From positions 1-27,827 of IMG/VR virus record IMGVR_UViG_3300017727_000115: DNA of 27,827 nt; one strand, 5' to 3'. The stretch is from a virus. Each line of letters begins with the position of its first letter. The first letter of the stretch is position 1. The notes below the pieces were generated by a model, which was given only the letters and a program-made list of their open reading frames with translations, did no database searches and had not been told where the DNA came from. A program made the position numbers and the translations under genes. Positions 19 through 27,206 of the stretch are shown here, one piece after another.

Positions 19-204
19 TTATTCTCCGCATTTTTTAGATGGATCATCGACTCTTCTCCAGTCTTCTTTTTCAAACCAGTCTCTAAGTGTAGCTCCTTTT
101 TTACGAGCGCCTTTAACATTAGTCTTAGACGATCTTTTATATTTACCTTTCGCGCCAGCAGATTTTTTAGAGTTTACTAGCTTTTCTCTTTGTTCTTTAC
201 TCAT
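19..204 (-). CDS. Small basic DUF5872-like protein, probably the 3' part of an interrupted gene
   Basis: A 61-codon frame starting at ATG 204. It encodes a very basic product rich in Lys, Arg and Ser, ending in a pattern RDWFEKEDWRRV..PSKKCGE. From memory this resembles small DUF5872-type proteins, in which a D-W-F...W...P..CG motif and a basic 'CLP..K..SM(S/T)..R' motif occur together. The second motif straddles this ATG: the codons just upstream, in the same frame, read CLPASKIRS and run directly into MSKEQR. I therefore think ATG 204 is not the ancestral start and that the gene once ran from 423, with an in-frame TAA at 282-280. Translation from 204 remains possible, but the upstream bases show no clear ribosome site. 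Function unknown; small basic proteins like this may bind nucleic acid, which is inference. Confidence 0.55.
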   Translation of the reverse strand: MSKEQREKLVNSKKSAGAKGKYKRSSKTNVKGARKKGATLRDWFEKEDWRRVDDPSKKCGE

Positions 205-279
205 GCTTCTTATTTTAGAAGCAGGTAAGCAAGTTTTAGTTGTACCACCACCTTTTTGTTTATTAAGCGGAGATCTTTG

Positions 280-423
280 TTATTCTGCGTGTGCAAGCCC
301 AACCTTATTGCCGTCACCTCTACCAGATACAGCAGCGGTTCTATTACGCATTTTATTCCAAGGCTTTGAGTGCATAACAGTAGCAGCACAATGCATCATT
401 GGTGTTTTTTGTTTATAAGCCAT
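280..423 (-). CDS. 47-codon ORF, probable 5' part of the same interrupted gene
   Basis: Starts at ATG 423, overlapping the TAA of the preceding small gene (TAATG, 425-421), a coupling arrangement repeated elsewhere in this operon. It encodes 47 residues beginning MAYKQKTPMMHC and ending VGLAHAE, then TAA at 282-280. The same frame stays open past this stop for 25 codons (QRSPLNKQKGGG and so on) and continues without another stop to the end of the 61-codon gene at 19. The complete frame 423-19 is thus 134 sense codons with one internal stop. Either this is a genuine short gene, or the gene is broken by a nonsense mutation or sequencing error. The good TAATG junction supports 423 as the real start. 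Confidence 0.5.
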   Translation of the reverse strand: MAYKQKTPMMHCAATVMHSKPWNKMRNRTAAVSGRGDGNKVGLAHAE

Positions 424-578
424 TATTTCTTTTTACCTCCAAAGTTACTAGGTCCACCAGCTTTAGTGCATCGCACGCCCCAACCCGAAGCATAAGCACT
501 AGGCCAAACCTTAAATTTTCTTTTTGCAGCAGCTTTACAAGCTGAACTTATTTTACCGTATAAAGGACTATTTGCCAT
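423..578 (-). CDS. 51-aa basic protein, DUF5872-like motif
   Basis: A complete 51-codon gene. Its ATG at 578 overlaps the last 11 bases of the giant virion gene, whose TAG is at 570-568. Its TAA at 425-423 overlaps the next ATG. The product is small and basic, beginning MANSPLYGK and ending with a Gly-Lys tail. It carries KFKVWPSAYASGWGVRC, close to the '(V/Y)xPSAYAxGxxVxxC' motif I associate with DUF5872-type proteins of phages and large viruses. The neighbouring 423-19 frame has the other motifs of that family, so the two genes may be split or duplicated parts of one small-protein family. Role unknown; placement after the virion genes suggests a late product. The overlap with both neighbours and the recognisable motif make it likely to be real. 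Confidence 0.75.
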   Translation of the reverse strand: MANSPLYGKISSACKAAAKRKFKVWPSAYASGWGVRCTKAGGPSNFGGKKK

Positions 579-3500
579 CTTTCTTTTTATTTTGTAGTTC
601 AATTATTTTTTTAACTCTAGCTTCTTCATAACGCAATGCTTTAATTTGTTTTTTATCAAGACCCAAATCTAATAGCATTTGTGTTTGCTCAGCTGTATTA
701 GTATCACGCTTCATTACATTGATCTCTTGTTGCTTAAGCTCTGCTTCTGTAGGTTCTTTTGGTTTATCCCAACCACCATAATATGGAAGACCAACATCAT
801 AAGAAGACCAACCAAGCGACATAGAAACTTTCTGCCATATCTGTGATTGCTCACTCATTATACCTCTAATATTGTTTATTTTTTTAATAACACGATCTAA
901 CGGTATATTTGTAAATGCAGTTACTATTTGTGCACCTGCTAAATAAGCTGGATTATCAAGACTAAAACCTTTTTCTTTTATTTCTTTTCTATTCCAACTA
1001 AAGCTTTTTAAACCACCTACTATTTTTCTATATTTAGAGCTAATAGCTGGTGAAAAACTTAATGCTTCTATTGCAGCTTTTTCAAACTCAGGTGTTTTCT
1101 TTTGAGACTCTTCATATATCTTCATTAGAGTGTTCTTAGCAGCAACCATAGCTGCGCCTGCAATACCTAAACCTTTTAATTGAGAGTCAACCATACCGTT
1201 TGCAACTCTAGCTATTTTTTTATCTTTAGCTTTCTTTTTCTTTTCATCTTCTTCGTCATCATCACCAAAGCCTATAGCAAATAATGCTTGTTGTAAAGCA
1301 TTAAATATTAAGTTTTGCATAACACCGTAATAAGCTATTCTAGATATATGTACTTTAGCGTCACCACGTCCTGCTGTTAAATCTTGTAAAGCACGCTTTT
1401 GTATTCTTACATACTGCATTGGGGTGTTAGCCCAGTTAAGTATAACACGACCAGCTGCTGATGCTTGTTGCATACTTATTTTATCAGGTGAACTAGACTG
1501 TTGGCTTTCTTCTGCAATTAATCTAAAGTCTTGAAAAGCTTTTTCTGTAGCCAACTCTTGACTCATGCCTTCTTTAATATATTTATTAAGTCTATTTCTA
1601 TAAAAAGTAGCACCACCTGAAGCAATTGCAAAACTATCTGCATATCTAGTGAGTACAAAACCTTTACTAAGTAAATATGCTATAGCGGATTTAGCTTTGT
1701 TTTTAGAATCTTTAACAGCATCCGCTATCTCAGATTCACTCACGTTTATCTTAAGACCATTACGACGCTCCGTTAAGTAATCAGAGTTCATAAGAGTCGT
1801 AAAATCTCCCCAGAATTGTTTTTGGTTTGCAAACGCTTTACCTGCAGCTATAATATTATTATCACCCCAATTTATAAAGTTTACAGCAGATATAGTTTGA
1901 AGTAGCGCAGATCTAGTATTTAAGAACATCACAGCGCCAACAGAGTTGTTAACCCAGTCAAGTACAGCGCTTGTTTGATCATTGTAACCAAGTCTGTTTG
2001 TACCAGCCTTCATTCTAGTTAATGTGTTTTCTAAAGCTTTACGCCAGCGCGTGCCATAAGCCGCTTCCATTTTGTTTAGATTTTCTGGTGAAAATATAAT
2101 ATCTACATTTTCTCTAAACTCTTGTTGATACTCTTTACGATTAACATCGTTTATACCACTAATAATATCTGTAGTTAAATTGCCACCTAACCAATCTTTG
2201 CCTGGCTTAGGATATGGTTTACCTTTTTGTATTGATATTAATTGATCTGCAAAAGCTTGAAGCTTAGCGTCATCAGTTATAAACTTATTAAGTTTTCTAA
2301 CATCTGCTTTTGAAAGCCCAGGTATCGACATGCCTTGTTTAGTCCACATGTAAGTACGAAGCGCGTGCTGATAATTAAATTTACCAACACCTGTTTCTGT
2401 CTCTAATGTTGTAGGTAGACCTGGAAACTGCTCTTTTAAAGCCATGAAGTCATTAGCTGCAGCTATTTTTGCTTGAGTTATAGAATCTTCAGCTTTATTA
2501 TATGTATCGATGAGATTTGTTTTTAAAAACTCATACTGAGATTCACCTTTTTTACCGTTACCTATCAAGTTATATAATAAACCCTTAAAATCTTCAGCTG
2601 ACGAAGCTAATGTTAACCAATCAAATCTTCCTTTATTTCTACCTAATGTTTTAGCTTTAGCGGCAGAGAACGTTTTGAATGACTCAATACCTGAAGAATC
2701 TTGAATCATTTGATTTACTATAGTATCAAATGTATTTGTTTTACTAAACTTAGCTTGTTGTACTCTTGATTTAACATCTATTTGATCTAATACTTCTTTA
2801 ACTGCTTTAACGTTTTTACTAGCATCATCTGCAAAATAAAAGTCATTATAACCTTCAGCTGCTTTACCAGCGATCCATCTACCTTTCGCAGCAGCGGTGC
2901 CATCGGCTAAGCCTGTTATATTTTTTAAAGGTATGTTAATACCTAAAGCTTTCATAAAAGCTTTTATAGGACCAGCTGCAGATTGTGGTCTAGCTGTTAA
3001 TATAAATAAATCTTCTGTACCACGAGTGTCTGCTATTTTTTTAGCAACATTAAATAATGGACCTTTTTTGCCATCAATAACTTGTTCAAATTCTGTAAAA
3101 TCAAATTCAGCACCTTCTGACTGTAATGTAGAAGCTTGTTCAGCAAATTGAGTAGCGTTTATTTTTTTAGTAGATCCATCAGGCATATTTACAATTACCT
3201 TACTTTTAGACCTAGCTAGTGTATCGTCAAAATCAAATACTCTTATTTTCTTAACAGGTTTATCTACTTTTCTACCTTCAGCTAAAGCTTTGTCAAGAGT
3301 GTTTAGCTCGTCAGTAACAAGCACGCTATTACCAGCGGCTTTGTCATTAAACTTGAGGCTGTTAGGTTGCATGTTGTTATTTGTAATACTAGGTTTTACT
3401 TTAGCATTACCAGAGCTGATCTGAGCATTAAGTCTTTTAACTGCTTCTGCTTGAGTTATTTCACCAGTCAAAACCTGATATGTAAGTTCGTTTTGAACAT

Positions 3501-6500
3501 ATATATTATTAGAGTTTTGATCTGATTTAGGTAATTGACGTGTGCGAGTTTCCGCCACGCTTTTACCCATTATGTAAAAGTTGTTAGAGTTTAAACCTTG
3601 TATGCCGTCTCCACTAGAATTTCTATTTACTTGAGGATTAAAATATCTAACTTCAGGAGTTGGTATTTCACTTACATCGCCAGTTTTAAAATACTCTTTT
3701 ATTTTATCATAAAAAAACTGTGTTTGAGTTTCTTTATAGTTATATGACTCACCATATTTGCCGTCTGTATCTATTAATTTGTTGTCTTGTGTTTCTGTTA
3801 TACCTAATTGAAAATAAACTTTTTCAACAACAGGCATTATATATTTTACGTCATCATACAGTTGAGCTGGGTACATTAACGAAGCCATGTCATTAGAAGG
3901 ATCAACATGCTCTTTTACAGTTTTACCACTTTTATCACGTTTAGCTTTTATATATTCTTCACTAACACCTTTATCTACAGCCATATTTCTTACTAAATGA
4001 GAAGTAGAAACAGATTGAGTTCCATAAATAGCTAGTAAAGGTAAATAATTAGCTGGGTCTGCTTTTACAGCATTTGCTCCGCCTTGTAATATAGCTTCAA
4101 CACCTTTATAATTATCATCTACTTTTTTCTGTGCAGATGGTTTAGAATATCTATTAGAAACAACAGAAGGGCTTTTAGCCGCTTTCGCCACGTTAACTTC
4201 TTTTACATTGTATGAAAGAGTGTTACCCTGATCTAACCAAGCTTTTCTATTTTTTTCAGCGTTTTTAAGTATATCATCAAATTGTTTAGTATCAAAAAAT
4301 ATAGCATTACCTTTAGAACTATAATCTACCATAGTTCCTTTAGTTAAAGATTCTAGTGGAATATATTTCCACATTTCATTTTCTATATTTCTTTTTAAAT
4401 ATTCTACAGCTTTAGGGTTTGTCGCTTTAAAGTTATTTACTGTTAATTCTTCACCTTCAAATTCAACTTTTATATTATTGTCTTTAGCAAACTTTTCAGC
4501 AGCTGTTCTCATTACTTTAACACCTTGCTCACCTAAAGTAGCTGTGTATACACCAGGTCTTTGTGCTTGCGTAATACTAAACTTAGCACCACCACGTAGT
4601 CGCTGAGGTGTTGTTGGTACTAAAGTTTCAAACATACGGTTTCTAATATGAGTATTTAATAAACCTCGTATTAGCTGAGCGTATTTACTATCTCTATATA
4701 ACTTACCTGTGGGTTTACTTCTAAGAAGATCCATATAATCTTTTAGTGTACCTGTAAGTTTGCCGTCAGTATATAAAGCATCTTTCATGTTTTTAGGTAT
4801 GAAAGTACCTCTACCGCGTGTAGTAGTCTCATCTTTAGTTTTAGGCAGTCTTGCATAATCACTAGCTGCATTAGCTAATAAAAATCTTTGAGCAGCATTT
4901 AAACCTGCTTCGTCATAATTTTGATACGTTCTAGTTTTATCAATAATAGTCTCTGGGTTTAAACCAAGCATGTCACCATATATTTTAGCCACAGCTGGTG
5001 GTACATCTTTTGTTTGACCAAACCTGTCTACATCTACATCTTTAAAACTCTCTGTAGTTGCTTCTGTTATTTTAGTTTCAAGCTCGCCTTTATTTTTAAC
5101 ACCTGCTTTTTCTATAATTGTATCAGAATACTTAACTGTTTCAGTTGGTGTTTTAGGCGTTCTAGAGCGTTTAGTTGTTGTTTGTTTTGTACTAGTATCT
5201 ACGACTTGCTTAGCTACCTCAGAATCAATGCTAGTGCCTTCTTGCAATGTTCCTCCTATTTGTTTAGCTCGTTCAAGTATTTCAGCTTGACGTTGTCTCA
5301 TTAAAGATCCTAAATAAGTATTAAGCTGAGCTGTGTCTGCGTTGAAATCAGCAAGCAATTGTTTGTTTCTACCTGGAAATATACCTTGCATTTGCTCGGT
5401 TATAGCTGTCTTAACGGCGTCCATTGGTATACTACCTGTTGGGTTGAACTTTAGTCCTTTGCTAATTACAGGCCAGTTAGTCTCAACAATAGCTTCTATA
5501 GCTGCAAACTTATCTGTTTGGTTGCTAGATTCAGAATTAATAGTATCAACTAGGTTTTCGTTTGTAATAGTTCCATCTCTTGAAAGATCTATAAACTCTT
5601 GACCTCTAGTAGTTATAGATGGCGATGTTCTATCACTAGTTGTTAAATCACCTTTTCTAATTAAAGCCTCTGCTCTTTCAGATACTTTACCTTCTTTTAT
5701 ACTTTTGTTATAATCTTTTATAAAATTATACGCGTCTCTACCACTTTGATATTCTAGATTCTTAAAACCAGCTGGTCCAAATACAGATTCTTTTAACTTC
5801 TTTACAAATCTAAGTAGATTTTCACCTAAGTTATCAGTAAAACCTATTTGATTTTTACCTACAAGATCAGAAAACACATTAAAATATTCTTCTGCATATG
5901 CAGCGGGTTCTTTTTCTATTTTATTACCTTGATCGTCTAACACAAAACCATCGTCATCGTTCATTTCATAACGGTAATTAGCATCAATTCTTTCTTGTAC
6001 TAATCTAAGCTCTTTATTGCTTAAAGTCTTTTTAAAATCTTCTACAAGTTCAACAGCTTTTTGAGGATTAGTATCAAATAAAGACTTTTGTATTTTATGT
6101 AGTAACTCGTGTTCAGCTGCTGTAACAGCTCCTACTGTAGCCGCCCACTCTTTGTTTATATATATTTGATTAGTTTTAGGATCTACGTAAGCATCTACAA
6201 ATTTAGGAATACCTTCTGGTAAGTTATTCATATCATCTATAACGTTTATATCTTCACCTAAAACTTTTTTAGTTACTGTTTCTACTTTTTCAATAGACTT
6301 TTTAAGTATAGCTTCGTTTTTAGCTTTATTTTCAGCTATTACATATGGAGCTATTATTTTAGCTCTTTGTTGCTCTAAATCTCTAAGCTCAACTTGTTTA
6401 GATTTAATTTGTATTTGCTTTGCTTCTTCTGAAATACTAGTATTATTATTAATACTTTCAATACTTCTAATTATATTATATTGATCAGCTTTATTTTTTA

Positions 6501-9429
6501 ATAAAAAGTTTTTCTCATCGCTAGTAAGCTGATCTATTCTATCTAAATCAACTTTTAAAGCTTTCATGCTTTTTTCTGTTAAACTATTTATTTCTGATTT
6601 TATAGAATTAAAAGCTTCAGTATCTATATTTGGAGAATTTTCAAGTTCGGCTTGTAGTTCTTTTATTCTATTAGCATTTTCACCTATTATTTGAACTGAT
6701 TGTCTGCTTCTAAAAGGAGCTATTATAGACTTACCTATTACAGGAGCTCTCATTACTAAACCCGAAGTCCAAGCTGTACTTATTGCAGTATCTTTAAATC
6801 CGTCAAATAAATTTACATCTTTTTTCTTAAGTATATATTTATCAGTTATATTACCTATCATTTGATCTAGAAGTTCACTAGAAACTTCTTCTGCTTGATC
6901 TATACCCCAATTTGATGCTCCAGTAATAAGGTTTTTAAGACCATCTTTAAAAGATGAGTTAAAAGCAGAATTAGCACTAAATGCCCCGCTAAGTCTTCCA
7001 AGCATACCTTGAGTTACGTATTCTGTTGCGACAGCAGATGTACCTGTTAAAGTTGCAGCTGTGTACATTTCAAATAAACTATAATTAGCACCATTAAGGT
7101 CTATTTCTTTTTGCATTTCTCTAAACTTACTTCCAGCTGTAGCTGCTCCTATTATAGGTAATCCAGCTCCACCAGATAGCAATAAAGTAGTCATTATAGG
7201 CACTTGGTTTCCTGTTGCTTCTGCAAAATAGGCTAATTTATCTTGCCATGTTTTTGTTTGATCCCAAGCTTGAGATTCAGCTAATTGACCTTCTATTGTG
7301 TCAGATAAGTAATCAACACTTGCTAACGCAGTGTCTGTAAGTTCTCTTCCAACTGATTTTCCGTCTTTTTTTAAAACAAACTTATCAAATAGATTTTTAC
7401 TTTGAAAAATTTTTCCAATAGGATTAACAGCAAGAGCGGTGTCTGTAATACCATATCTTTGACTAGATTCTAATACTCCAGCAGCTATGGTATTTAAAAA
7501 ACCTTGCGATGTTCTACCAAGCATTTTTGCTGCGATTCCGTAGTTTCTATTTAATACATCTGTAAATAAAGCTGCTTCTTCGTCTGTTTTTACTTTAGAA
7601 TCTAGCTCACTTATATTGTCTTGAATAATTTCTAAATTAGCTTTACTATTTATATTTAATTGTCTTAAATTATATTGAGCTTTGTCAACATCTTCTTGTG
7701 TTAAATACTGTTGATTAATTAAAATGGAAGACTGTAATTGATTATTATATATGTTTTGTTCAGCAATATTCATACTTACGTAAGTATTTGCTAAATCTAA
7801 TTCAGCTGCTGCAGATCCTAATTTACTAGCTATTTCTTCATCTGTTTCTCCAATAACATCTTTCCAACTTTTAGATCCACTAAACAATCCTAATAAAGCT
7901 CTACTAACAGCACCACCCTCAACTTTTACCTCATATTTAGCATATTCAGTATAAAGTCTTTTTAACTCATCTTTTTCAAGCTTTGTTTGATACATGTCAA
8001 TAACATCATCTCTCACCATTTCATTAGTGACATTAGCTACATTTACTTTATTTCTTTTAGCATAGTTAATCTTTGCTTGATTATAAAAATCTTGTTGCAA
8101 TAAAACATCTTCATCAACCCCTGGGTCTAAAACGTCTCCAGTAAGTGTTAAAAGACCTCTAGCTAAAGCACCTGTAGCAGTGTTAGGTTGAGTTTGTGCT
8201 TGAGTTTTAATAATTTTTCCAGCTATATTTAACATAGATGGCTCTTCGACAGGCTGTATTATAGAAAGCTGTCTAGCTTGTCTTTTTATATCTGGAAGTA
8301 TTTTTTTAAATTTATCATCAACCCATGCTTTTCCTGTAAGACTTAAATAAAGATTAACATCAGAATATTCTTTTTCTAATTGTTTTTTTTCTTCTTCTAA
8401 AGCAGCTATTTTACCAGTCTCGACTGGAGAAAGATTGTTTATTTTTTTATCTATTTCTGCCTTTTTAGTTACAAGTTCTTTTTTCTTTTCTTTAACTTTT
8501 TCTACTATATCTTCACCTCCATACTCTTCAAGTAAAGAATTAAACTCTCTTCTTTGAGCTTCCTGATTTATTTTTGATATATTAACACTTCTATCTACAG
8601 ATTCTAATTTACTAGAAATCTCATTTTGTTCCATATTACCAATTAGCATATCATCAAAAGACTGTGTGCCTTCTCTATTTGGATCAAAATCTTGTTGACT
8701 TGAAACTTGTAATTTCTGATTTGCCTGCTTTTTTACCTCAGATGGTAAAAAACCTAATTGAGACTGTATAGCTGCTTCTTGGTTTTGTAAAGCTATATTT
8801 TTAGGATTGCTTTTAGCACGTTCTGAAGCATTAACAAACTCTTCGTCATCTTTACTTTTGTAAAAAACTTGTAAATCTAAATTACCATCTTCATCTACTT
8901 CTGATTGATATTTATATGTAAAATCACCATCTACAACTTCTTCACCTGAGTTTACTATTTCAACGTCAGAGTTTACATCTTTATAAGCATTTTTTACAGC
9001 ATCATCTATAGCTTTTCTTCTACCAGTTTCATTTTTTTGTTTTTGAACTGTATCAAAAAATCTTTTACGAATTACTTGGTAACTTTCTTCTTCAGGTTCT
9101 TGTGATTCCGATGAACCATCTTCCGACGGAGATTCCGTATCTTCTTCCTCGGATGCATTTTCCGGTGTAGTTGTTACAGTCGCATCCTGTTCCTCCGCAA
9201 CAACTTCTTGATTTCCCTCTTCTTCAATTACCTCTTCTTTTTCAACACCTTCTTCTTCAACCGGTTTTTGATTTTCAACAACTTCAGGTGTTTCTTTTGT
9301 AGTTAAAACACCTTCAGTTTCTTGCATTGATTGATCTGCTTGCCATTTTCCAAGTTCAGCAATTATCTGATTTCTAGTCAGCGGTGGACTAACAGACTGA
9401 AGTTCTATAGTTTTTTGTTCTAATGTCAT
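568..9429 (-). CDS. Giant 2953-aa internal virion/ejection protein with zinc-peptidase-like and HAD-like motifs
   Basis: By size, position after the tail and gp14-like genes, and build, this is probably an internal protein ejected with the DNA, analogous to T7 gp15/gp16 or N4 giant virion proteins. Residues about 45-118 are strongly acidic and low-complexity, followed by long helical, coiled-coil-like stretches. A Gly/Ala/Leu-rich hydrophobic segment lies near 740-765 and others near 2500 and 2690-2720, which could interact with membrane. A zincin-like HELLH motif sits at H1107-H1111, with candidate third ligands E1180/E1181 in the following helix. Residues about 2060-2230 hold all HAD phosphatase motifs: DFDDT (D2066, D2068, T2070), LTARP (T2145), downstream lysines, and FADD (D2201, D2202). 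I saw no lysozyme or transglycosylase motif. The start at 9429 lies 5 bases past the upstream stop; the gene ends in TAG. The virion role is inference; the motifs are directly visible. Confidence 0.85.
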   Translation of the reverse strand: MTLEQKTIELQSVSPPLTRNQIIAELGKWQADQSMQETEGVLTTKETPEVVENQKPVEEEGVEKEEVIEEEGNQEVVAEEQDATVTTTPENASEEEDTESPSEDGSSESQEPEEESYQVIRKRFFDTVQKQKNETGRRKAIDDAVKNAYKDVNSDVEIVNSGEEVVDGDFTYKYQSEVDEDGNLDLQVFYKSKDDEEFVNASERAKSNPKNIALQNQEAAIQSQLGFLPSEVKKQANQKLQVSSQQDFDPNREGTQSFDDMLIGNMEQNEISSKLESVDRSVNISKINQEAQRREFNSLLEEYGGEDIVEKVKEKKKELVTKKAEIDKKINNLSPVETGKIAALEEEKKQLEKEYSDVNLYLSLTGKAWVDDKFKKILPDIKRQARQLSIIQPVEEPSMLNIAGKIIKTQAQTQPNTATGALARGLLTLTGDVLDPGVDEDVLLQQDFYNQAKINYAKRNKVNVANVTNEMVRDDVIDMYQTKLEKDELKRLYTEYAKYEVKVEGGAVSRALLGLFSGSKSWKDVIGETDEEIASKLGSAAAELDLANTYVSMNIAEQNIYNNQLQSSILINQQYLTQEDVDKAQYNLRQLNINSKANLEIIQDNISELDSKVKTDEEAALFTDVLNRNYGIAAKMLGRTSQGFLNTIAAGVLESSQRYGITDTALAVNPIGKIFQSKNLFDKFVLKKDGKSVGRELTDTALASVDYLSDTIEGQLAESQAWDQTKTWQDKLAYFAEATGNQVPIMTTLLLSGGAGLPIIGAATAGSKFREMQKEIDLNGANYSLFEMYTAATLTGTSAVATEYVTQGMLGRLSGAFSANSAFNSSFKDGLKNLITGASNWGIDQAEEVSSELLDQMIGNITDKYILKKKDVNLFDGFKDTAISTAWTSGLVMRAPVIGKSIIAPFRSRQSVQIIGENANRIKELQAELENSPNIDTEAFNSIKSEINSLTEKSMKALKVDLDRIDQLTSDEKNFLLKNKADQYNIIRSIESINNNTSISEEAKQIQIKSKQVELRDLEQQRAKIIAPYVIAENKAKNEAILKKSIEKVETVTKKVLGEDINVIDDMNNLPEGIPKFVDAYVDPKTNQIYINKEWAATVGAVTAAEHELLHKIQKSLFDTNPQKAVELVEDFKKTLSNKELRLVQERIDANYRYEMNDDDGFVLDDQGNKIEKEPAAYAEEYFNVFSDLVGKNQIGFTDNLGENLLRFVKKLKESVFGPAGFKNLEYQSGRDAYNFIKDYNKSIKEGKVSERAEALIRKGDLTTSDRTSPSITTRGQEFIDLSRDGTITNENLVDTINSESSNQTDKFAAIEAIVETNWPVISKGLKFNPTGSIPMDAVKTAITEQMQGIFPGRNKQLLADFNADTAQLNTYLGSLMRQRQAEILERAKQIGGTLQEGTSIDSEVAKQVVDTSTKQTTTKRSRTPKTPTETVKYSDTIIEKAGVKNKGELETKITEATTESFKDVDVDRFGQTKDVPPAVAKIYGDMLGLNPETIIDKTRTYQNYDEAGLNAAQRFLLANAASDYARLPKTKDETTTRGRGTFIPKNMKDALYTDGKLTGTLKDYMDLLRSKPTGKLYRDSKYAQLIRGLLNTHIRNRMFETLVPTTPQRLRGGAKFSITQAQRPGVYTATLGEQGVKVMRTAAEKFAKDNNIKVEFEGEELTVNNFKATNPKAVEYLKRNIENEMWKYIPLESLTKGTMVDYSSKGNAIFFDTKQFDDILKNAEKNRKAWLDQGNTLSYNVKEVNVAKAAKSPSVVSNRYSKPSAQKKVDDNYKGVEAILQGGANAVKADPANYLPLLAIYGTQSVSTSHLVRNMAVDKGVSEEYIKAKRDKSGKTVKEHVDPSNDMASLMYPAQLYDDVKYIMPVVEKVYFQLGITETQDNKLIDTDGKYGESYNYKETQTQFFYDKIKEYFKTGDVSEIPTPEVRYFNPQVNRNSSGDGIQGLNSNNFYIMGKSVAETRTRQLPKSDQNSNNIYVQNELTYQVLTGEITQAEAVKRLNAQISSGNAKVKPSITNNNMQPNSLKFNDKAAGNSVLVTDELNTLDKALAEGRKVDKPVKKIRVFDFDDTLARSKSKVIVNMPDGSTKKINATQFAEQASTLQSEGAEFDFTEFEQVIDGKKGPLFNVAKKIADTRGTEDLFILTARPQSAAGPIKAFMKALGINIPLKNITGLADGTAAAKGRWIAGKAAEGYNDFYFADDASKNVKAVKEVLDQIDVKSRVQQAKFSKTNTFDTIVNQMIQDSSGIESFKTFSAAKAKTLGRNKGRFDWLTLASSAEDFKGLLYNLIGNGKKGESQYEFLKTNLIDTYNKAEDSITQAKIAAANDFMALKEQFPGLPTTLETETGVGKFNYQHALRTYMWTKQGMSIPGLSKADVRKLNKFITDDAKLQAFADQLISIQKGKPYPKPGKDWLGGNLTTDIISGINDVNRKEYQQEFRENVDIIFSPENLNKMEAAYGTRWRKALENTLTRMKAGTNRLGYNDQTSAVLDWVNNSVGAVMFLNTRSALLQTISAVNFINWGDNNIIAAGKAFANQKQFWGDFTTLMNSDYLTERRNGLKINVSESEIADAVKDSKNKAKSAIAYLLSKGFVLTRYADSFAIASGGATFYRNRLNKYIKEGMSQELATEKAFQDFRLIAEESQQSSSPDKISMQQASAAGRVILNWANTPMQYVRIQKRALQDLTAGRGDAKVHISRIAYYGVMQNLIFNALQQALFAIGFGDDDEEDEKKKKAKDKKIARVANGMVDSQLKGLGIAGAAMVAAKNTLMKIYEESQKKTPEFEKAAIEALSFSPAISSKYRKIVGGLKSFSWNRKEIKEKGFSLDNPAYLAGAQIVTAFTNIPLDRVIKKINNIRGIMSEQSQIWQKVSMSLGWSSYDVGLPYYGGWDKPKEPTEAELKQQEINVMKRDTNTAEQTQMLLDLGLDKKQIKALRYEEARVKKIIELQNKKKDGK

Positions 9430-22608: not shown

Positions 22609-24996
22609 TTAAGCAAACGCGTTCATATCTACGTCTACATTTTGTTCAAAATCTATTGGAGGTCCATCTACATTTCTTTGTGTTATCATTTCACTTTGCT
22701 GCGTACCCTCCATTTTTATACGCTTATCTTTTCTGTCTTCTATCATTTTTTCCTTTGCTCCAACAGCTTGCATATCCATTTGCTTTAATTGCATATCAAA
22801 CTCAAATCTTCTTTGCATTTTTTGCATTTCAAGTTCATTTTGTACTTGCATGCGCTCTATTTCCATTTGATTTTTAGACTGCTCAAACTGAACTTTACTT
22901 CCTGTTATAGCTTCTTGCTTTTGTACTTCAGCCATAGCTGTTTTTTCAGCAGTTGAAGCTTGAGCATCAGCTTGAGCCTGTATATTAGACTGTTGTATTT
23001 GCGTGTCTTGCTTTTGCTTAGCTTTACGCTTAACTTTAAGCATTTGATTAGCAAGCTTAAGATTTTTTATTTGTCTTAAGTCTATAGCATCTTCAAGATT
23101 TATCCCACCTTGCTGTATCGCTGCTTGTATGTTTTGCTCTAACTGTGCTTGTTCTTCTTCGTCTGGTTCTAATTCTAAAAATATACCAAAGTCATGAAGG
23201 TTTAAGTTCACTATTTCCTCTAACGTTTTAATGTTATAAGTTGATATAGAGTTCTGTAAAGAGCTTTTTGTAAGAGGAAACTCTAATGCATCTGCTACTC
23301 TAAGCGCTACGTTTTCTGATATTCTAAGAGTTAAATATAAGCTAGACTGTAATATATGTTTAGTAGCTGTGTTAGACGCGTTTGCAGCTAGTTTTTGTAA
23401 TCCAACTAACGTGTTGCGATCAGGCAAGCTACCGTCTCTAGCTTCGTTTAGACCGGTCACATCACGTATCATTTGTAAATAATATTGATACGTTTGAATT
23501 AAGCTAGCTATTTTAGCATTTCCGCTTCCACTTTGTAATTCTTGAATAGGTACTCTACCTGCGTTCATTTCACCGTCTTGTGTAAGTGATCTACCAACAA
23601 CAGAACCCGTTTGAAAATACATGTTTAATGCTTCCGCAGGATTGTAGTTAGTACCGTTACCAAGATCGACTTCAGCAAGTCCGTCCATATCTAAATACAC
23701 ACCATCTGGCACCATGCGAGATATTACTTGCTGTAATTTTAAATGTGTAAGCTGTATCATATCAGCAAAACCAGTACATCTACTTACTAATGACTCTATT
23801 CTACCTTTATATATTCTTGGTGCACAAATAGCATAATTCATTTTAACCTTAGTTGTATCAGCATAAGGCCTAGTCATATTTTTACATAATTCCCAATTAA
23901 GCATTATATTAGTTCCTAAAACTTTAGCACCACTATATAAAACTTCTATTGATCTTGATACTCTTTCAAAGTTGTCATTTTCAGGTGGATTAAATGTGTC
24001 GGGCTTTTCAATAGCCTTCATTAACCCTTGATCTGTTTGTTTTATTTTAAAAACCTGATTGTGATATGTTTTATAATCAAAATAAAGAACTTGAACAGTG
24101 TTATTATCATAATTACCGTAACCAGTTATATATGATTTATTACCTGGTGTATTTTGAATTATTTTTAATTCTTCTTCAGGTATACCCGGAAATTCTTTTT
24201 TTAACTCTGGTATAGTTAATGATTTAACTTCTCCAACATAATATATATCTTCAAAGTTTGGATCTTCTGTATAAGAGTAGACCATATAAGCAGGATCAAC
24301 ATAATCAATAGTAACACCGTTGGCAATATTAAAATCAGTTTTAACAGCTGCTATACCACAAACTGCAAGATCCATGTTTAATCTTCTTCTAGTAAGATCA
24401 TATTTATTTTGAGCCATTACAGAAGATATAGATTCTTCTTGTGCAATTTCTATAGACTGCTTATAACTCAACTGCATGTGTAGCTCTAAATCCTCTGGTG
24501 TCTCAGGTATTACATCTTTGTTTGGAGATTGATAAGCATTTATACCTAATGTTTGTTCTAAATTTAAAAGATATTCTTTTGATATCATATCTTCATATAA
24601 TTTAGTAGCGTAATCAGTTCTTTTTCTAACTGACTCTGGATCTTGAGCGTATGCTTTTACATCATAAGATTTTTGTGATATACCGTTTACGACTATGTCT
24701 ACAAACTTAGATAAAATAGGAACAGGTGTCCAGTCTAAATTAAGATAAGACAAATCACCATTAATAGATAATTCATCTTTGTATTTTTGAACGCTTTGTT
24801 CACCTCTTGCGTAAAGTCTTAATTGATTAAAGTTGTTCCAATTAGTTATATACCTATTACCTGTAGTTCTACCTTGACTAAACCATTCGCCTTCTATAGC
24901 TTGTGCTACTTGTTTACCGTATTCAATACTTGATTTTTCTTGGTCACTAACTACTTGGCTAGGAAATGCACTTCTAGTATTAGTATATATATTCAT
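22609..24996 (-). CDS. Portal protein
   Basis: A 795-aa protein that would form the dodecameric ring at the packaging vertex. The N-terminal motif RLYARGEQSVQKYKDELSIN (60-79), followed by LNLDWTPVPILSKFVDIVVN (85-104), matches the portal family of crAss-like and other Bacteroidota podoviruses. The central region has VDPAYMVYSYTEDPNFEDIY and LQQVISRMVPDGVYLDMDGL. The conserved helical stem region is RDVTGLNEARDGSLPDRNTL (near 530) with LAANASNTATKH. The C-terminal about 130 residues form a long Gln/Met/Lys-rich coiled coil (QKQEAITGSKVQFEQSKNQM and on), common in these portals as the crown or barrel. The ATG at 24996 overlaps the terminase TAA (TAATG), indicating translational coupling. This is the expected neighbour of the terminase. 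Confidence 0.9.
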   Translation of the reverse strand: MNIYTNTRSAFPSQVVSDQEKSSIEYGKQVAQAIEGEWFSQGRTTGNRYITNWNNFNQLRLYARGEQSVQKYKDELSINGDLSYLNLDWTPVPILSKFVDIVVNGISQKSYDVKAYAQDPESVRKRTDYATKLYEDMISKEYLLNLEQTLGINAYQSPNKDVIPETPEDLELHMQLSYKQSIEIAQEESISSVMAQNKYDLTRRRLNMDLAVCGIAAVKTDFNIANGVTIDYVDPAYMVYSYTEDPNFEDIYYVGEVKSLTIPELKKEFPGIPEEELKIIQNTPGNKSYITGYGNYDNNTVQVLYFDYKTYHNQVFKIKQTDQGLMKAIEKPDTFNPPENDNFERVSRSIEVLYSGAKVLGTNIMLNWELCKNMTRPYADTTKVKMNYAICAPRIYKGRIESLVSRCTGFADMIQLTHLKLQQVISRMVPDGVYLDMDGLAEVDLGNGTNYNPAEALNMYFQTGSVVGRSLTQDGEMNAGRVPIQELQSGSGNAKIASLIQTYQYYLQMIRDVTGLNEARDGSLPDRNTLVGLQKLAANASNTATKHILQSSLYLTLRISENVALRVADALEFPLTKSSLQNSISTYNIKTLEEIVNLNLHDFGIFLELEPDEEEQAQLEQNIQAAIQQGGINLEDAIDLRQIKNLKLANQMLKVKRKAKQKQDTQIQQSNIQAQADAQASTAEKTAMAEVQKQEAITGSKVQFEQSKNQMEIERMQVQNELEMQKMQRRFEFDMQLKQMDMQAVGAKEKMIEDRKDKRIKMEGTQQSEMITQRNVDGPPIDFEQNVDVDMNAFA

Positions 24997-27206
24997 TAAC
25001 TTATTATTTTTGATGTATTCCCTCTATTATCGTATTTTTTTATTCCCAAATCAACAGCTTTTAAACTAATAGGCACACTTGGTGCGTATCTATGCTTGTT
25101 ACAAGCCATTAAAGCTAATCCAGAGCTAATAGAAGCATCATGCTTAGTTCTGTTATTTATATTAAATTTAGCCCAATCTTCGAGTGTTCTTTGAAAATAA
25201 ACATCACCATATCCACTTTCTTTTAACCCTACAAAATCTTCTATGTAAGACTCAATAGCAGCTGCGTGGGCTTGTTTTATGTCTTCGCTAGAGTTTGGTA
25301 TACCACCTAATTCTTTTTCTGTAACTGAAAGTTTGTTTCTTTTTTTATCTGGCCTATTCATTGAAAAGCCTCTATAACCTCTTCTTTTAAAATGATACAA
25401 AAGTCTAGGTTTATTATTTTCTGCTAATATTGGCATGCCATAAAATACACAAGCCATAAGTACGTCTTCAAAAAATATTTCAGCAGTTTGTGGCCTAGCT
25501 ATATATTCTAAAAAGAAATGATTTGGCGGAGTGTCTGTCATTGAAAACTTAGTAAGACCGTGTAAAGATCCTTTTGAACCTCTTTTGTCTACAGTACCTG
25601 ATATATCATAAGGGTCACATCCAAACGCTCCTAAACTTTCATTTAGAGGATATTTAATACCTCCTTTTGTTATTACAGCGTTTTGCATATTAACAGGCGG
25701 AACCCAAGTTATTAAAAACCTACCGTTTTTATTTGGCATAAACAAAACTTGACTATCTTGTATACCATCTTTCCACATAAAATTACCGCATGTTATATTT
25801 ATAGAATTTTTTAAATCTTCATTAAAATCTATTTGTTCATAAATTTTAGTTAAATTAAATAAAGATTCTTTTGATTCATCTCTAAAAGCATGCTTTTCAG
25901 TACGTGGAAACTGTCTGTAAAATTCATTTAAAGCATCTTGATCCTGCTTTAAACCCTCTACTTCATTATCCCAATATTCTATTACACCTAAATCTATAAT
26001 TTCACTTTGTGGTCCTTTAACAGGTTTGTTTGGTGTTTGGAAGACAGGTAAGCCATAAGAATCAATGTATCCTTCGTAATTCCATTCCATAGGTATAAAC
26101 AAGCTATATAATCCAGAGCGAGTTTGTCCATTCGCGTTTCGTTGTGTAACATCTGAGTCATTATATAGTTTTTTAAAGTTATCACCACCTTTATCTAATG
26201 AGTTACTAGTTGAACCCATCATACATTTGCCTATAATTCTACTACCTAATCGTAAGCAGGTTTTCGTGACCCTCCAGTTGTTAAGGATGTTCGTCGGACG
26301 TTCCCACTTGCCGCTCTCATCGTGGACGAGGAGTTTGAGCTTTTCACCGTCGTAGGAGTTGTCACCCGTGTTCTTCCAGTCGATCGTTGTGTCGAGCCCG
26401 TCCAACTCTTGTAGCTGTTGGTTTGTCTCAAGTTTTTTACGCGTATATTTCGTTGCGGGTACTCTGTACGCGAGCTCTGTCTTTGGACGGTCCATTCCGT
26501 CCTGAATTGGTTTGAAAAAGAAGGGGTAATTAACGGATATTGGTACCACCTTATCTGTGAACATCTTCTTTGCATCAGGACCAGACTTTGATAATATCCC
26601 AAACCTAGAGTCGCTTGATATGGTTGCCATATTAACGCACTCTCCCGAGGCCATAAATGAAAACCCAGAACGCCTGTTCTTAAGGTAGCACATGCCATAG
26701 GATCTGTTATCGGCCTTACAAGCTTCCCAGAATATGTAAAATAATCTGTTTGATTCACGAAAGTCTGGTTGTCCAACGTCGATCTTGCTCCACTGCAAGT
26801 ACATATAATGAGTACCAGTAATGTAAGTAGCCACATTCTTATTATAGAACCAAAAGCCTTCTTCCCTGCGGACGAACTCATTATCGATGTAATCATACCA
26901 TTTTTCTTTAAAGTCTAATGGGTATTGTTCCCAATCAAAAACAGACTTTATTTTTTTTAATACTTTTGGGTATTCAACATGCTCCCAAGTATTTGTTTCA
27001 AATTTATGTGTTTTATTTTCTTCAGGTAAAGCTATTTTTAGGTTTTGTATTTCATATATTTCACCTATTTTACCTGTCTTACTTATTACAATAATATCGT
27101 GCTCTTTATTGTATCCATACTCCCATTTATTATACCTATTCATTCGTTTAAGAACTTTAGGTTTAATATGGTCTTTTAAAATCTTATATAAACTCTGCTC
27201 GTACAT
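24996..27206 (-). CDS. terL: Large terminase subunit (TerL)
   Basis: A 736-aa packaging motor. The ATPase half has a deviant Walker A, LKNRRSGFSF (175-184), of the K-x-R-x-x-G-(F/Y)-S type seen in crAss-like terminases, and Walker B LKLLVHDESGKW (290-301; D296, E297). A probable coupling motif, MMGSTSN, is at 329-335. The nuclease half has the RNase-H-like acidic motif FGCDPYDISGT and a later acidic helix, ESYIEDFVGL. The length fits this family. The start overlaps the stop of the 91-aa gene and the stop overlaps the portal start (both TAATG). One oddity: codons for residues about 105-317, exactly the ATPase core, use many C/G-ending triplets (CTC, GTC, ACG, ATC, GGC, CGT), whereas the rest uses TTA, AGA and ATA. 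The protein frame is intact throughout. Confidence 0.93.
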   Translation of the reverse strand: MYEQSLYKILKDHIKPKVLKRMNRYNKWEYGYNKEHDIIVISKTGKIGEIYEIQNLKIALPEENKTHKFETNTWEHVEYPKVLKKIKSVFDWEQYPLDFKEKWYDYIDNEFVRREEGFWFYNKNVATYITGTHYMYLQWSKIDVGQPDFRESNRLFYIFWEACKADNRSYGMCYLKNRRSGFSFMASGECVNMATISSDSRFGILSKSGPDAKKMFTDKVVPISVNYPFFFKPIQDGMDRPKTELAYRVPATKYTRKKLETNQQLQELDGLDTTIDWKNTGDNSYDGEKLKLLVHDESGKWERPTNILNNWRVTKTCLRLGSRIIGKCMMGSTSNSLDKGGDNFKKLYNDSDVTQRNANGQTRSGLYSLFIPMEWNYEGYIDSYGLPVFQTPNKPVKGPQSEIIDLGVIEYWDNEVEGLKQDQDALNEFYRQFPRTEKHAFRDESKESLFNLTKIYEQIDFNEDLKNSINITCGNFMWKDGIQDSQVLFMPNKNGRFLITWVPPVNMQNAVITKGGIKYPLNESLGAFGCDPYDISGTVDKRGSKGSLHGLTKFSMTDTPPNHFFLEYIARPQTAEIFFEDVLMACVFYGMPILAENNKPRLLYHFKRRGYRGFSMNRPDKKRNKLSVTEKELGGIPNSSEDIKQAHAAAIESYIEDFVGLKESGYGDVYFQRTLEDWAKFNINNRTKHDASISSGLALMACNKHRYAPSVPISLKAVDLGIKKYDNRGNTSKIIS

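Follow-up and report, generated by a model that had tools for sequence, protein, structure and literature searches.

A private in-frame TAA in a small phage gene is probably a nonsense change, real or in the consensus

One frame with one internal stop

Close to the end of a 27,827-base viral contig (IMGVR_UViG_3300017727_000115, positions 1 to 27,827; "the window" below is this whole stretch), a small reading frame is interrupted by a single TAA. This raises the question of whether the codon is a signal for expression of a longer product, a boundary between two genes, a mutation or an error. Retranslation bore out the first-pass annotation in that the frame running from 423 to 19 on the reverse strand is open but for the TAA at 282-280. 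It comprises 47 codons, this stop, 86 further codons and a terminal TAA at 21-19, the internal stop being included in the count of 134 codons. The motif CLP..K.RSMSKEQR was likewise confirmed to cross the ATG at 204-202, CLPASKIRS being continuous with MSKEQR across it.

19 to 423, reverse strand: interrupted single gene, 134 codons plus stop with one in-frame TAA, identified from the reading frame and its relatives
280 to 282, reverse strand: the in-frame TAA, not seen in relatives; those sharing the N-terminal module carry a sense codon at this place
283 to 423, reverse strand: N-terminal module of 47 codons, missing or swapped for other sequence in many relatives
22 to 258, reverse strand: conserved core of 79 residues behind the stop (KGGGT-x-K-x-CLP ... 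W-x(4-5)-W ... CGE)
202 to 204, reverse strand: internal ATG, supplying the Met of a motif of SMSKE type that lies within the open frame of many relatives
423 to 578, reverse strand: adjoining 51-codon gene with a WPSAYASGWG motif and a weak DUF5872 match
568 to 9429, reverse strand: 2953-codon open frame upstream of the two small genes, free of internal stops

The stop of the 51-codon gene overlaps the ATG of the interrupted frame. A WPSAYASGWG-like motif was detected in 74 of 80 loci of relatives (the best 80 of 259), in a forward frame, and lay upstream of the gene in the 12 loci where its position was read. At the other end of the window, the terminase-like protein encoded at 24996-27206 matched 87 phage records, 68 of them Flavobacterium and 15 Cellulophaga phages; its best match was the environmental phage MW202828.1 (62.9%).

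Relatives encode one continuous protein

The part behind the stop was used as a query against IMG/VR and recovered 259 encoding stretches, of which the best 80 were used. Further queries with an intact relative, an alignment of the N-terminal module and two more distant members brought the total to at least 160 distinct IMG/VR contigs, counted by contig name and by eye. Three of 160 contigs end within the gene (L020, L177 and L214), leaving 157 with a complete core. Among the contigs listed, 156 of these 157 had the core open in one frame and preceded by a start codon. This count combines 147 contigs recognized by pattern with nine whose reading frames were judged by eye (L265, L283, L284, L286, L308, L311, L318, L319 and L320); three relatives without an ATG start (L227, L268 and L293) were scored as intact on GTG or TTG starts. 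An earlier pattern scan had overlooked three of the 80 loci (L107, L108 and L115), the frames of which were open when read. The sole exception, L178 (701-1107), is an otherwise normal relative with a frameshift in the core caused by a two-base insertion, making it a second disrupted copy besides that of the window.

The 86 residues behind the stop share up to 99% identity with relatives, several of which align from the first residue after the stop. Thirty-five of the 80 records (again the best 80 of 259) were searched whole, and each held a single, stop-free copy. Relatives at 63-69% identity were also found in three bacterial metagenome bins, with open frames in all three. No match to the post-stop part was found among named phage records at E 0.01. 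A search by DNA pattern with the site left open pointed to eight contigs, which we set aside since the translated core search there gave nothing significant (best E 5.4). The gene family comprises small conserved phage proteins, encountered here almost only in uncultured viral contigs. That relatives encode one continuous protein strongly supports the earlier proposal of present or past coding between the stop and the ATG.

These data also bear on the suggestion of two independently translated pieces, a 47-residue protein and a core with its own start at the ATG at 204. An ATG is indeed present at that position, and relatives of 91-92 residues consisting of nearly the core alone are known (L009, L017 and L054). 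However, these start ahead of KGGGT-CLP and not at the window's internal ATG, and a start at 204 would remove ten residues that are invariant among 44 sequences (K9, G10, G11, G12, T13, K15, C17, L18, P19 and K22 of P0002). Moreover, the N-terminal module ends at the joint in none of the 20 loci listed that carry it, and two genes with the same break, looked for in the relatives, were not found. With 156 of 157 complete relatives open from a start ahead of the core, we consider two separate genes very improbable.

Codon 48 is a sense codon in relatives

The internal stop occupies codon 48. In all ten relatives that were compared gap-free over the whole frame, the nearest of which shows 95.6% DNA identity, this codon encodes Glu, one substitution away from the TAA of the window. 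Alignment of homologues at the stop site, as the first-pass annotation had advised, gave 12 Glu, 7 Lys and 1 Ala in the 20 N-terminal-module loci listed, the single Ala being out of register owing to a small insertion. A stop was found in none of the 20.

Programmed or regulated readthrough of the TAA, yielding a short and a long product, would predict the same stop to be common to relatives with an open frame behind it. The downstream part is kept in frame among relatives and the stop sits at the joint of two modules, as such a mechanism would have it, but the stop itself was found in no relative examined. In addition, TAA is the usual terminator in the window, ending 12 of the 16 listed frames (the interrupted one included), and ARAGORN found no tRNA gene in the window. 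Readthrough thus appears highly unlikely. Still less likely is reassignment of the stop codon or suppression of TAA by the host, for which the in-frame stop itself, and nothing more, can be cited; against it, the other 15 listed frames run over 9,050 codons free of internal stops, and TAA serves as their usual terminator.

The part behind the stop has been under constraint

A recent nonsense allele would predict a sense codon in relatives together with constraint behind the stop, and both were observed. Codon differences behind the stop were 10 synonymous and 1 non-synonymous between the window and L002, and again 10 and 1 between the window and L003; for the more distant L018 and L025 the ratios of synonymous to non-synonymous differences were 19:8 and 21:10. 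The 10:1 excess suggests that constraint on the post-stop part lasted until very recently. Furthermore, every base of the window's 237-base core occurs in at least one of the 79 relatives compared, which argues that no decay has taken place. Judged from these comparisons, the stop is younger than any detectable decay, and the part behind it still looks like a protein under selection.

An older pseudogene that lost its role and has since drifted neutrally could find some encouragement in the existence of L178 as another disrupted copy. The synonymous excess behind the stop and the lack of private bases in the core both speak against it, and we hold this explanation to be very doubtful.

The same comparisons were considered with respect to exchange of modules between phages, which we do not claim, since synonymous divergence was lower in the core than in the large upstream gene only in some pairs. 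At four-fold sites, L009 gave 5/32 in the core vs 83/192 in the upstream gene and L024 gave 6/31 vs 82/163; pairs without lower core divergence were L018 (14/29 vs 76/236) and L023 (15/32 vs 7/23).

A probable nonsense change, real or in the consensus

The sense codon present at position 48 in relatives fits the first-pass proposal of a recent nonsense mutation or a sequencing error. We conclude that the TAA is very probably (about 0.93) a private nonsense change in one phage gene, either a young null allele or an error in the consensus. A single-base substitution would have converted a codon that is Glu in the nearest relatives into TAA, where the optional N-terminal module meets the constant core. 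The stop cuts off the constant core and spares the optional module; if the change is real, the phage would make the 47-residue N-terminal module only and lose the core, as a very young null allele. If it is not real, it would represent a consensus error within the last 300 bases of the contig. We put the chances that the stop is a sequence error or a minority variant at about even, and those of a real young null allele at a little under even.

The position of the stop, 280 bases from the contig end, is relevant to this choice. Among the best 80 of 259 loci, contig ends fell within 300 bases downstream of the gene in 5 of 80 cases vs 0.87 expected, and within 300 bases upstream in 1 of 80 vs 0.87 expected. 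Over the four distances tried, the downstream counts were 5, 6, 11 and 24 of 80, vs 0.87, 1.45, 2.90 and 8.41 expected, and the upstream counts 1, 3, 5 and 14 of 80; six loci stopping short of the contig end were excluded downstream, with no such exclusion upstream. This excess of contig ends downstream of the gene suggests that assemblies may break near there. On the other hand, no further sign of error was seen in the window, even in the core near its end, which to some extent favours a real change over an error. The second broken copy, L178, makes occasional real loss of the gene conceivable, but L178 could equally be an error.

Where a nonsense codon private to one record lies close to a contig end, mutation or error is the best reading unless relatives indicate something else. 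Here the relatives decide against a special signal, and the stop itself is most likely ordinary.

A constant core behind variable N-terminal parts

Alignment of diverse members revealed 23 invariant residues in the core among 44 sequences; 43 of 46 chosen cores were included, L283, L308 and L311 having been dropped for their C-terminal extensions. In contrast to this constant core, the part ahead of it varies among relatives. We distinguished the window's module, a CWKGYERVPGT-type, a type that looks helical by eye, a PAP2-like type and forms of 91-92 residues with nearly no N-terminal part. The PAP2-like type is represented by L038 (2389-3252), whose long N-terminal domain scored E 5.8e-06 and 26.5 bits vs a Pfam cut-off of 27.2. 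By eye, L043 (20-865) and L050 (2374-3261) have a long N-terminal part resembling that of L038. Two of the members with C-terminal extensions, L308 (707-1201) and L311 (734-1255), carry a DUF6321 domain behind the core in the same frame, with E values of 1.2e-10 and 5.1e-8 that pass the Pfam cut-off.

The post-stop part is very basic, with 26 Lys/Arg vs 9 Asp/Glu in 86 residues as counted by eye. The intact protein might be a very basic, Cys-containing domain that perhaps binds nucleic acid and is virion-associated, a tentative and rather doubtful assignment; virion association is proposed because the gene adjoins the terminase-portal gene block. Ten of 20 sequences gave a Pfam match of the core to MACPF, which stayed below the cut-off (E 0.068 at best) and was set aside as chance.

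A possible permuted relation to DUF5872

The first-pass annotation had called the frame DUF5872-like. In native order this label failed: Pfam PF19197 (DUF5872; curated cut-off 27.5 bits) matched none of P0002, P0003 and window:19-204, nor any of the 20 aligned sequences, nor L103, L107 or L108. The PF19197 profile runs from a W half to a CLP half, whereas the core runs in its native order from the CLP half to the W half. With the halves exchanged, one of four cores, that of L103, matched PF19197 at positions 51-112 of 116 (18.8 bits, E 0.0026, below the cut-off), where the native core had given none; for the window, L107 and L108 the core had no PF19197 match after exchange. What survives of the DUF5872 label for the core is this weak match of L103 after half exchange. 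The neighbour gene at 423-578 matched PF19197 positions 6-37 in its own right (E 0.0091, below the cut-off). In the literature, the search for DUF5872 led to an algal virus genome (PMC12085832).

Two PHROG families of unknown function, phrog_23735 and phrog_14910, gave a similar picture. The exchanged window core matched phrog_23735 over positions 3-76 of 81 (E 2e-4), vs E 0.058 for a native query of equal length, which matched with one half only, and had no match to phrog_14910. The exchanged L108 core, swapped at the linker, matched phrog_23735 at 4.1e-6 and phrog_14910 at 2.2e-5; the native L108 core matched phrog_14910 at E 1.3e-4 and phrog_23735 at 0.0023, in two separate stretches each, so that for phrog_14910 the gain on exchange was only about sixfold. 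Within the native L108 core, the C-terminal half (54-79) aligned with phrog_14910 at its beginning (5-31), and the N-terminal half (10-46) with phrog_23735 at its end (38-74). Residues 106-142 of native L107 matched phrog_14910 at 28-64, and the exchanged L107 core matched the same family at 1.7e-5. The way in which these halves of L108 and L107 match the profiles indicates that the order of the core is opposite to that of the PHROG profiles.

Shuffling and rotation of the L108 core served as a control for the half exchange in the PHROG matches. Four of four shuffles gave no PHROG match. When the core was rotated at residue 35, E was 7.9e-5 with phrog_23735 and 1.1e-4 with phrog_14910; rotations at 20 and 65 did no better than 0.016 with either family.

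On the basis of these profile matches, the proposal that a DUF5872-type domain in block-swapped (circularly permuted) form makes up the 79-residue core, with the adjoining gene as the remaining DUF5872 segment, appears evenly balanced. If true, the two adjacent genes would form a split, permuted DUF5872 protein, with a constant core and exchangeable N-terminal parts. This possible relation is the only part of our results with some novelty. A short and very constant phage domain with exchangeable N-terminal parts, unmatched by Pfam and with halves that may have been reordered, would help to explain the lack of annotation.

Structure model of the core

Modelling gave a core structure of low to middling confidence (pLDDT 65, pTM 0.50). 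Each half of the model has a short strand (residues 17-19 and 74-76), and the two would fit a compact domain with close ends. Comparison with the PDB, for which a single chain was compared, gave no Z of 2 or more. Fold matches to the core model were found in BFVD, where the uncharacterised uncultured-virus protein A0A218MML8 matched at E 1.1e-7 (56% identity) and A0A218MLK1, likewise uncharacterised and named as a DUF6321-domain protein, matched at E 5.5e-4 (67% identity).
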